Source: Trichocoleus sp. FACHB-46 (lineage in GTDB: Bacteria; Cyanobacteriota; Cyanobacteriia; FACHB-46). From it: 64,000 bases of DNA. The stretch covers positions 496,001-560,000 of the forward strand of contig NZ_JACJOD010000006.1 in assembly GCF_014695385.1 (NCBI RefSeq), read 5' to 3'. Below the pieces are notes generated by a model. It did no database searches, was not told the DNA's origin, and saw only the letters and a program-made list of their open reading frames with translations. Positions 13,433-16,279 of this stretch are shown here, one piece after another; the stretch's first letter is position 1, and every line of letters starts with the position of its first letter. The position numbers and the translations under genes were made by a program.

Positions 13433-14473
13433 TTACTTTTGCGAGGCACTTGGAGGGGTGCGTTGCGGTTGAAAGGGGGTGACCTTGCCACCTAACGCTT
13501 CAACAATAGTCTGAGTATTGACCACCATCATTTTGATGTAGGAGTCGCCATCACTCTCCGCAGCACCAATAGAATCTGAGTAAAGCGATCGCGGGGCGAG
13601 TTGTACGCCTGCCTCTTGAGCTACGGTTTTGATCAAAGCTGGATTAATCGTGGTTTCGGCAAAGATGGCTGGTACTTGAGCCGACTTCACTGATTCAACT
13701 AGGCGTTGCACAGTTTGGGCGCTAGGTTGTTCTTCGGTGCTAATGCCAATTAGGGTGCCAATAATGTCGAGATTGTAGGCGCGAGCATAATACTGAAAGG
13801 CATCATGAGTGGTGACTAAGCGCCGTTTTTCTGGAGGAATGGTTTGGATTTGTTGAGTAATCCATTGGTCCAACTCTTCTAGCTGCGCAGTGAGCTGAGC
13901 GGCATTCTGGGTAAAGCGATCGCGATCGTCGGGTGAAAGCTCAATTAAGGCATCGCGAATGGCCGTGACCATCTGCATGACATTTTTGACATTGCCCCAA
14001 ACGTGGGGATCGGGGACAGTTTCTCTCTGGCCTTTCTGAAGCTGCAACGGTGGCACAACTTCGCCCACGGCAACTTTTTGGGCCCGCCCCCCAGCGGCAT
14101 TCATCAGCTTAATTAGACCTGGCTCCAGGTTGTAGCCGTTGTAAAAAATTAAATCTGCTTTTTCTAAGTCTCGGCTGTCTGCTGGCACTGGTTCATAAAC
14201 GTGTGGATCGGTTCCAGGTTCGAGGATGCCGATTAGTTGCACTTCATCTGCGGCAATCTGAGCGGTTAAGTCGGCCAGGATAGTGCTGGTAGAAACTACG
14301 CTGGGCTTAGCCGCTCCGTTGGCAGCAGATTGGTTAGGGGCAGGCTGAGAACCGATATTGCAGCCACTTAACCAGACACTGAGCAAGAGGCCCGCGATCG
14401 CCTGTCCGTAACTATGAATCTTATAGCCGCTTTGGGGGTAACCGCTTTGGGGGCGATGTGGAGCAGTAATCAT
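13433..14473 (-). CDS. mntC: Manganese ABC transporter, substrate-binding lipoprotein
   Basis: Cluster A-I metal-binding protein. The lipobox LLLSVWLSGC gives a lipid-anchored Cys near residue 38. Predicted metal ligands: His in DPHVYEP, His in DPHVWG, Glu in IFAETTINP and Asp in LYSDSIG. Glu as third ligand and the absence of a His-rich loop favour manganese (MntC/PsaA type) over zinc (ZnuA type). The ATG at 14473 is chosen over an upstream in-frame TTG at 14485. Near the N-terminus the peptide PQSGY is tandemly repeated. It is divergent from mntAB, with direct repeats in the shared promoter. Zinc import cannot be excluded. Confidence 0.85.
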   Translation of the reverse strand: MITAPHRPQSGYPQSGYKIHSYGQAIAGLLLSVWLSGCNIGSQPAPNQSAANGAAKPSVVSTSTILADLTAQIAADEVQLIGILEPGTDPHVYEPVPADSRDLEKADLIFYNGYNLEPGLIKLMNAAGGRAQKVAVGEVVPPLQLQKGQRETVPDPHVWGNVKNVMQMVTAIRDALIELSPDDRDRFTQNAAQLTAQLEELDQWITQQIQTIPPEKRRLVTTHDAFQYYARAYNLDIIGTLIGISTEEQPSAQTVQRLVESVKSAQVPAIFAETTINPALIKTVAQEAGVQLAPRSLYSDSIGAAESDGDSYIKMMVVNTQTIVEALGGKVTPFQPQRTPPSASQK

Positions 14474-14489
14474 ATGAGAAGTCAATATT

Positions 14490-14548
14490 TATTTTCATAT
14501 TCCTTTCATTTTTTAAGTTACCCTATTTTCATATTCCTTTCATTTTTT
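14490..14548. promoter_or_regulatory. Paired 25-bp direct repeats in the mntC/mntAB divergent promoter
   Basis: Two identical 25-bp units (14490-14514 and 14524-14548) lie in the same orientation, 34 bp apart start to start. Each contains two TTTCAT hexamers 11 bp apart, giving hexamers at 14493, 14504, 14527 and 14538. The spacing (11, 23, 11) places all four on about the same helix face. This pattern suits tandem binding of an OmpR-family response regulator; ManR, which represses mntCAB in Synechocystis, belongs to that family. Binding by ManR here is inference. Confidence 0.7.
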
Positions 14549-14573
14549 GCTTAGGCTGAGTGGAGACGCTGCC

Positions 14574-15383
14574 ATGAAGACTCAACCCCCGCCTTTTGAT
14601 ACAGGTTCAACCCAGTGTCCAGATGCACAAATAGTCTATATGAATGGCAGTCATAAGATTTCGGTGCGCCAGTTGGCGGTGCAGTACCGAGCGGTACAGG
14701 CTCTCAGAGATATTAATTTCGTAATTCACCCTGGGCGGGTAGTTGGGATTATTGGCCCCAATGGCGCGGGTAAAAGCACTCTGCTACAAGCCATGCTGGG
14801 ATTGGTACCAGCCAATCATGGTACGGTTTTACTCGGTGATCAACCTCTAGCCGATCAACTAGCGCGAGTAGCTTATGTGCCGCAGCGATCGCAGATTGAC
14901 TGGACTTACCCTGCCACCGTTTGGGATGTAGTGATGCTAGGGCGGGTGCGTAAGACAGGGTGGTTCCGTCGCTTTTCTACCACCAGTCGGCATTTAGCCG
15001 CAGCCGCTTTGGATCGCGTAGGCATGAGTGCTTATCGGCATCGTCCCATTGGGCAACTTTCTGGAGGGCAGCAGCAGCGAGTGTTTTTGGCGCGATCGCT
15101 CGCCCAAGAAGCCGATATTTATTGCTTCGATGAACCCTTCGTCGGCATTGACCAAAAAACCCAGGATGTGATTTTTCAGATTTTTCATGAGCTGGCCGCC
15201 GCAGGCAAAGTGGTGGTGGTGATTAATCACGACCTGGGCGAGTCAATCACCCACTTTGACGACTTGATTTTGCTCAACACAGAATTGATTGCGAGTGGTC
15301 CACGTGAACAGGTGCTCAGCACTGAAAACCTCTATCGTGCCTATGGCGGCAAAGTGGTATTTCATGCGGGAGAAGCAGCCTGA
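14574..15383 (+). CDS. mntA: Manganese ABC transporter, ATP-binding protein
   Basis: ATPase of the metal importer. Walker A GPNGAGKST, Q-loop region VPQRSQIDW, signature LSGGQQQR, Walker B IYCFDEPFVGID and the H-loop VINHDL are all present. The text QIDWTYPATVWDVV is typical of the Mn/Zn ABC ATPase family. The ATG at 14574 has a GGAG 8 bp upstream; an in-frame ATG at 14640 would give a length closer to many homologues, and a TTG at 14547 overlaps the operator repeats and is unlikely. The stop overlaps the mntB start (TGATG), so translation is coupled. Confidence 0.87.
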   Translation: MKTQPPPFDTGSTQCPDAQIVYMNGSHKISVRQLAVQYRAVQALRDINFVIHPGRVVGIIGPNGAGKSTLLQAMLGLVPANHGTVLLGDQPLADQLARVAYVPQRSQIDWTYPATVWDVVMLGRVRKTGWFRRFSTTSRHLAAAALDRVGMSAYRHRPIGQLSGGQQQRVFLARSLAQEADIYCFDEPFVGIDQKTQDVIFQIFHELAAAGKVVVVINHDLGESITHFDDLILLNTELIASGPREQVLSTENLYRAYGGKVVFHAGEAA

Positions 15384-16279
15384 TGTTGCAGGCACTGCTA
15401 GAGCCGTTGCAGTACGAATTTATGCAGCGATCGCTGGTGATTGCGGTCTTGGTGGGGCTGATTTGTGCGGTTGTGGGCAGTTACTTGATGGTGCAGCGCT
15501 TAGCTTTATTAGGAGACGCGATTAGCCATTCGGTTCTGCCCGGTTTAGCGATCGCGTTTATGGTAGGAGCCAATATTTTTGTCGGGGCATTCATTGCGGG
15601 TGTGCTCAGCACAATGGCGATTGCCTGGATTCGGGCGCGATCGCCCATTAAAGAAGATGCTGCGATGGGGATTGTGTTCTCGGCCTTTTTTGCCCTTGGC
15701 GTAACGCTGATTACGCTGATTCAAAAGGACAACAAGATTGACCTAAATCACTTTCTGTTTGGCAATATTTTGGGTGTGACGCAGCAGGAAGTCTTAGATA
15801 CAGCCTTGATCTCGGCCTTTGTCTTGCTGGTAGTTGTCCTGCTTTATAAAGAATTGCTCTTCTACACGTTCGACCCCTTGGGAGCCCAAGCCGCAGGCTT
15901 ACCCGTGAACCTGTTGAACTTCGGTTTGATGGTGCTGATTGCCCTGACGATCGTAGCCAGCATGAAAACCGTAGGCGTAATTTTAGTGCTGGCGCTCTTA
16001 ATTACCCCAGGCGCTACAGCTTATTTGCTGGTGCAGCGGCTACACAACGTCATGTGGTTAGGAGCAGGCATTGGGATTGTGGCAAGTGTCAGCGGCATGT
16101 ATCTCAGTTATTTCTACAACGTGCCTTCTGGCCCTGCCATTGTTTTGGTGGTGTCGGGGCTATTTTTGTTAGCGCTTTTGTTTAGCCCGACGCAAGGAGT
16201 TTTTACATATCCCGCAGCTCAACGAGGCGAACCCTTGTTATGGCGGGAGTTGAAGGGGCTATTGCGCGGCTCGGGTTAG
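15383..16279 (+). CDS. mntB: Manganese ABC transporter, permease
   Basis: Integral membrane protein of 298 residues with about eight to nine hydrophobic segments, ABC-3 family. Characteristic text: GLICAVVGSYLMVQRLALLGDAISHSVLPG (residues 20-49, first half conserved in all members) and AASMKTVGVILVLALLITPG-like helix near residue 195. It pairs with mntA by overlapping codons and with the divergent mntC to form a complete importer. Manganese supply is central for photosystem II, which fits a cyanobacterial context. Confidence 0.87.
   Translation: MLQALLEPLQYEFMQRSLVIAVLVGLICAVVGSYLMVQRLALLGDAISHSVLPGLAIAFMVGANIFVGAFIAGVLSTMAIAWIRARSPIKEDAAMGIVFSAFFALGVTLITLIQKDNKIDLNHFLFGNILGVTQQEVLDTALISAFVLLVVVLLYKELLFYTFDPLGAQAAGLPVNLLNFGLMVLIALTIVASMKTVGVILVLALLITPGATAYLLVQRLHNVMWLGAGIGIVASVSGMYLSYFYNVPSGPAIVLVVSGLFLLALLFSPTQGVFTYPAAQRGEPLLWRELKGLLRGSG

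Follow-up and report, generated by a model that had tools for sequence, protein, structure and literature searches.

A direct-repeat box at manganese-uptake genes of Cyanobacteriia, the probable operator of a ManR-type regulator

What is the function of two identical 25-bp sequences set close together between the divergent genes of a manganese transporter? In the window (the whole 64-kb stretch of DNA analysed here), mntC encodes a periplasmic metal-binding protein (13433–14473, minus strand; PF01297 (ZnuA), 8.6e-88; start ATG 14473, with TTG 14485 also possible) and diverges from mntA, encoding the ATPase of the Mn ABC transporter (14574–15383, plus strand; PF00005 (ABC_tran), 1.9e-29), and mntB, encoding the permease (15383–16279, plus strand; PF00950 (ABC-3), 3.6e-86). 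The mntA frame starts at ATG 14574 and is also open from TTG 14547, and a GGAG at 14562–14565 (plus strand) reads as a possible ribosome-binding site for it. Within the 100-bp space between mntC and mntAB, the 25-mer TATTTTCATATTCCTTTCATTTTTT is present as two identical copies on the plus strand, at 14490–14514 and 14524–14548, with TTTCAT hexamers starting at 14493, 14504, 14527 and 14538, exactly as an earlier note on this DNA had described. Each copy holds a 17-bp core in which two TTTCAT hexamers flank ATTCC, at 14493–14509 (box 1) and 14527–14543 (box 2), and the two scored 31.0 and 32.1, respectively, with the weight matrix introduced below.

The site thus consists of direct repeats with a period of about 11 bp in a Mn transporter promoter. 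The 25-mer has only these two copies in the window with up to three mismatches allowed, and none arose by chance in 100 dinucleotide shuffles of the window. The loose form of TTTCAT-N5-TTTCAT, with up to two mismatches, is not rare (8 found against 7.7 expected); the perfect form occurs six times in the whole 6.56 Mb genome, and two of these occurrences are the mnt repeat pair. The earlier note also placed all four hexamers near one helix face, which is only partly right. Their offsets are 0/11/34/45, and since 34 bp corresponds to 3.24 turns at 10.5 bp per turn, the two hexamer pairs lie about 86 degrees apart. A single-face array of all four was rejected because the 34-bp offset does not amount to full helical turns.

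Conservation and genomic distribution of the box

At the level of the order, the comparison covered two other genomes (G001 and G002), both from the genus of the window's strain. The box, which the earlier note had expected close relatives to retain, is present in both, and each keeps two boxes 34 bp apart. The 17-bp core of copy 2 is unchanged in the two congeners, and copy 1 shows two changed core bases in G001 and one in G002, so that the perfect 25-bp identity is a property of the window's strain. In the three-congener alignment hardly any change is seen from box 1 through box 2, a stretch that includes TTACCCTA, while the flank on the mntC side drifts.

Further afield, 32 named mntA loci (L021–L051 and L082, out of 80 kept from a contig scan) divide into 19 with a box and 13 without. 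MntA identity is 62–77% among the box-bearing loci (53% for L046); the box-less loci are more distant relatives, with identities of at most 57%, and several of these paralogs show Zur-like palindromes by eye. MntA orthologs (E≤1e-90) were found in 28 of 77 Cyanobacteriia genomes, and 27 of the 28 have at least one box upstream of mntA, always in the mntA (plus) direction; G026 is the lone MntA-bearing genome without one. These counts and those for hmx below use corrected gene starts for loci at contig ends (e.g. L171, L178, L185 and L203), with G069 (mntA) and G035 (hmx) counted as box-bearing.

A perfect TTTCAT-N5-TTTCAT with nearly the same spacer also lies on contig C30 of the window genome, just upstream of two GDT1/UPF0016 half-genes which, by their sequences, look like Hmx1 and Hmx2, and this box is kept in both congeners. 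A weight matrix trained on the 19 named mntA sites was therefore scored over 68 regions upstream of hmx1, from 67 genomes. With a score of at least 10 and p≤0.005 against 200 dinucleotide shuffles per region as thresholds, 41 of the 68 had a box, and all 41 are reversed relative to the gene; no region had a forward box (0/68), the best forward score being 9.1. The matrix scan gave no box in 27 regions, from G003 (left uncounted, with a score of 10.4 but p=0.16), G006, G007, G016, G018, G024, G027, G030, G031, G036, G041, G043, G044, G047, G049 (two regions), G054, G056, G057, G058, G062, G064, G066, G067, G068, G073 and G074. A gene with a CxxCxxCC motif (putatively Zn/Fe-chelating) adjoins hmx1-hmx2 in many of the box-bearing genomes, for example at L003:1118-1474, as part of a conserved neighbourhood.

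Scans that made no assumption about target genes gave a similar distribution. The exact pattern TTTCATATTYYTYTCAT has 25 matches in 18 of the 77 genomes (reversed pattern, 0). Mn-type transporter genes account for 24 of these, namely mntA or mntC, hmx1, an NRAMP gene (L216), a second metal ABC transporter (L220, L228) and mntC-like genes (L223, L225, L226, L230). The remaining match (L221) has htpX on one side and an MFS gene on the other. Fixing a further T gives an exact 18-mer, which has 101 matches in 81 of 291 Cyanobacteriia genomes, a set that includes the 77, and the reversed control has one. Neighbouring genes, assigned by tblastn, were mnt for 36 matches, hmx for 53, the second metal ABC transporter for four, htpX for six and a TonB receptor/porin pair for one, with one match unexplained; 93 of the 101 are thus at Mn-type transporter genes. 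All 53 hmx matches are reversed, and L376 is the sole mntA match with the opposite orientation. The one exact box that has no metal gene nearby is L375:526, in G181, a genome in which the candidate regulator discussed below was not found at E≤1e-70.

Within the window genome, a pattern that accommodates the two kinds of box matches perfectly only at mnt (twice) and hmx (once), with no control match; three matches have two mismatches, and two of these are cop-type boxes on contig C51. The genome-wide search that the earlier note had called for therefore found no scatter over unrelated sites, and the data support a box almost confined, genome-wide, to Mn-uptake genes.

Promoter architecture and predicted mode of action

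Pairs of boxes 33–36 bp apart occur in 15 of 47 mntA regions, and in 14 of these 15 a -10-like TANNNT ends 2–3 nt before box 2, G050 being the exception. The probability of this by chance is about 3e-18, or about 5e-13 for 10 of 11 independent units (grouped by family, plus one named Acaryochloris locus; G050 is the unit lacking TANNNT). The candidate mntA -10 element in the window is TACCCT (14519–14524, plus strand), separated from box 1 by 9 nt and from box 2 by 2 nt, which fits the TANNNT pattern seen elsewhere and is invariant across the three congeners. With TANNNT between the boxes, the mntA promoter looks sandwiched, box 1 lying over the -35 region and box 2 over the predicted transcription start, and the 34–35 bp spacing would follow from box 1 replacing the -35 region and box 2 covering the start. 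TAGGCT (14552–14557) fits the Nostocales spacing when placed after box 2, but was set aside because double-box promoters have the conserved TANNNT between the boxes, which leaves a leader with the GGAG; TACCCT is preferred, and TAGGCT is a possible alternative. Other mntA boxes are spaced by 11, 22–23, 30 or 41–58 bp, and at most Nostocales mntA loci there is just one box, followed 8 nt later by TAAGCT.

The earlier note proposed control in both directions at once. On the mntAB side this is supported. For mntC it is likely, since the repeats occupy most of the 100-bp spacer and mntC elsewhere has a box of its own (L223, L230), although an mntC promoter is predicted at most: a consensus scan gave one weak reverse match, with 0.5 expected. 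A TTTCAT near the mntC start in Nostoc loci was rejected as evidence because it is the reverse of an ATGAAA start codon.

The hmx boxes are placed differently. In 25 of 41 cases the reverse box overlaps a hexamer matching TATAAT at five of six positions, compared to one of 25 mntA boxes read on that strand. A -35-like hexamer (at least 4/6) accompanies 12 of the 41, against a shuffle mean of 4.8 and maximum of 11. The whole hexamer was used for this comparison; A at position -3 alone was rejected as proof of an hmx -10, because the same base is conserved in mntA boxes. Overlap of a reversed box with the -10/start region is common to hmx and to the mntC, mntH and second-ABC examples inspected. 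As read from the promoter sequences, the positions at the mntA pairs and at hmx suit a repressor. Box 1 by itself would also fit a class II activator of the PhoB kind, so we infer the sign of regulation mainly from Synechocystis, where ManR is reported to repress mntCAB (available text of PMC7020235).

We consider it likely that the repeats are the operator of a ManR-type OmpR-family repressor which serves a Mn regulon through the Cyanobacteriia. Both repeats would represent the same 17-bp operator, with a run of T after TTTCAT-N5-TTTCAT, and an OmpR-family response regulator, ManR being the most likely, would bind each as a head-to-tail dimer. When Mn is plentiful, the phosphorylated regulator would fill both box 1 (predicted to span -38 to -22) and box 2 (at the putative start site), keeping RNA polymerase off the TACCCT between them. 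Mn scarcity would leave the boxes empty, allowing transcription of mntAB, probably of mntC, and of hmx1-hmx2 with its single box. Synechocystis sp. PCC 6803 offers the closest parallel: the transporter is the same, the regulator ManR is of the OmpR family, and repression of mntCAB at sufficient Mn fits the box positions in the window. A CopR-like direct repeat upstream of Synechocystis mntC (accessible part of PMC4182526) also resembles the window site. Unlike that system, the mnt genes of the window are divergent and two boxes enclose the -10.

The regulator and competing explanations

Assignment of the repeats to ManR or a relative, as in the earlier note, holds to the extent that this is an OmpR-type direct-repeat operator, conserved and nearly confined to Mn genes; ManR is the most plausible protein to occupy it. 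The window genome encodes 15 OmpR-type regulators, of which 13 were aligned, leaving out a partial frame (L102) and a long fusion (L115). The recognition helix SNVxAAQxRLLRRK is found in three: the CopR/RppA-type regulators L112 and L114, and the candidate L113 (G000:C6:338817-339509). Synechocystis pCopR carries SNVVAAQVRLLRRK, the same recognition helix, and TTTCATCCTGATTTCAT is located upstream of the DUF305 gene that precedes the pCopR gene on pSYSX (a site read by eye). L113 is accordingly the best candidate for a second, Mn-directed regulator that uses this half-site. It is a candidate ManR through a process of elimination based on tabulated lengths and cysteine positions (accessible passages of PMC4361706), its Cys being at 63 compared to 64 in ManR. 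The ManR pattern C64/C154/C230 was seen in none of 10 further orthologs examined, no ManR model was among the listed NCBIfam matches of 10 regulators scanned, and the search for regulator genes adjoining mnt or hmx returned one truncated RpaB-like match only.

Orthologs of L113 are present in 240 of the 291 genomes (E≤1e-70). Exact boxes occur in 78 of these 240 and in three of the 51 others (G181, G239 and G266), giving p 5e-5; for 31 of the genomes in the regulator-less/box tally, membership came from the difference between two genome lists. Without family f2, whose 35 genomes have neither regulator nor box, the association vanishes (p 0.40), and co-occurrence therefore neither proves nor refutes ManR. 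Binding by ManR is something we only infer, because the half-site is common to CopR and the co-occurrence is not independent of phylogeny.

Two other classes of operator were compared. The Zur box, which governs the paralogous ABC transporter ZnuABC in cyanobacteria, is a palindrome resembling ATGATAATCATTATCAT; the repeats of the window site are direct and not inverted in this way. The Pho box of PhoB has a 7-4-7 layout of 11-bp direct repeats with TGTCA half-sites. Layout, period and the distance from box 1 to the -10 are alike in the window, but its half-sites are TTTCAT rather than TGTCA, the genes concerned are Mn genes, and the start site is occupied by box 2 and by the hmx boxes.

The likeness to PhoB bears on a rather unlikely reading in which the regulator, bound to box 1 in the -35 place, recruits RNA polymerase at low Mn, with box 2 auxiliary or autoregulatory. 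Activation of this sort would be consistent with box 1 standing 8–10 nt upstream of the -10 in place of a -35 hexamer, with the single box at most Nostocales loci, and with a consensus scan in which no sigma-70-like promoter appeared on the plus strand. It is harder to reconcile with box 2, which would cover the mntA start site, with the reverse boxes overlapping -10/start regions at hmx, mntC, mntH and the second ABC transporter, and with the report of repression in Synechocystis genetics cited above. The identity of the two copies invites a quite different account, suggested in part by the earlier note, namely a recent local duplication or a simple-sequence repeat devoid of regulatory role. 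Perfect identity over 25 bp in the window's strain is what this predicts, yet the boxes are kept 34 bp apart in both congeners and 33–36 bp apart in other families, and over 291 genomes the box is confined to Mn genes with one control match. We therefore rejected recent duplication, and regard an explanation of this kind as extremely improbable.

It is improbable, to a lesser degree, that the box belongs to CopR or another RppA-type regulator, or is common to CopR and ManR so that copper status also reaches Mn uptake. The CopR box of the CopRS copper system is, like the window site, a TTTCAT direct repeat with an 11-bp period, and the recognition helix of CopR is nearly that of the ManR candidate. 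The same half-site and spacing are found at cop-type genes of the window genome (TTTCATCTTGATTTCAT at L005 and TTTCATGCTGATTTCAT on C51) and on Synechocystis pSYSX, and Giner-Lamia et al. 2014 found the CopR consensus upstream of mntC (accessible part of PMC4182526). However, the cop-type spacer is NNTGA or similar, compared to ATTYC/AWT in the Mn box, the target genes differ, and cop-type boxes reach matrix scores of 8–15 against 31–32 at mnt. Neither this spacer nor a cop-operon gene context is found at the window site, and none of the 101 exact matches was classified to a known copper gene. The same portion of PMC4182526 describes mntC and the nrs genes as without differential expression in any strain, and CopR activates its promoters (excerpt of PMC13421787), unlike the repressor proposed for Mn. 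The CopR box as printed, TTCATN4-5TTCAT, misses the pSYSX site, since TTTCAT-N5-TTTCAT equals TTCAT-N6-TTCAT. The ManR-type operator remains our preferred reading, and it raises the question of how ManR and CopR stay apart with a common half-site and recognition helix.

The second family of direct-repeat boxes in the window genome, mostly TTTCAT-NNTGA-TTTCAT and with the same half-site as the Mn box, is located at L005:1501, L004:1423 and 1501, and L112:2232 and 2309. They accompany a DUF305/CopM-like gene and an operon with a CopR/RppA-type regulator.

A candidate manganese regulon

Elements of this kind, in which direct repeats form the operator of an OmpR-family regulator from a metal two-component system, are already known, and a look-alike of the copper box has been noted in print at mntC. 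Our literature search, mostly of open papers and without the primary ManR papers, found no consensus Mn/ManR box, class-wide regulon or two-box -10 sandwich. ManSR is the only reliably identified cyanobacterial Mn regulator, with mntCAB its specific target, according to the available text of a review (PMC7020235).

We hold as evenly balanced the proposal that one Mn box defines a class-wide regulon under joint repression. Its members would be four kinds of transporter (MntCAB, Hmx/UPF0016, the NRAMP protein MntH and a second ABC transporter), the membrane protease HtpX and, in one genome at least, the TonB receptor/porin pair. Evidence on Hmx points both ways. One UPF0016 gene of Anabaena is under ManSR control according to part of a review (PMC7380456), which ties ManR to the hmx box, whereas the hmx1/2 transcripts of Synechocystis are unresponsive to excess Mn (accessible section of PMC11649195), which counts against our preferred explanation. 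If the proposal is true, Mn would regulate Hmx in most cyanobacteria other than Synechocystis, for which constitutive expression is described, and the response to Mn starvation would gain a new arm in HtpX. The assembly of photosystem II is set by Mn supply. A box that can be searched for in sequence makes further targets of the Mn sensor directly testable, and predicts Hmx and HtpX among them.

Six exact boxes lie upstream of htpX (L221, L325, L352, L353, L358 and L363), in G017, G104, G148, G179, G275 and G281, which represent two families. They are always reversed and overlap a -10-like sequence, and the genes on the opposite side mostly differ. On the strength of this geometry and of the differing neighbours, htpX is predicted to be a new member of the Mn regulon; a link between htpX and a Mn box was not met with in the literature searched, in searches not aimed at htpX.

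At L350:1501 (G082), an exact box is flanked by a TonB-dependent receptor gene and, in divergent orientation, a porin-like gene, a pair that possibly provides an outer-membrane route for Mn. The second metal ABC transporter, of the MntC/ZnuA kind, has a Mn box at L228:1501 (G001), at L220:1501 and 1547 (G072), at L335 and at L357, and the two boxes in G072 are in opposite orientation.
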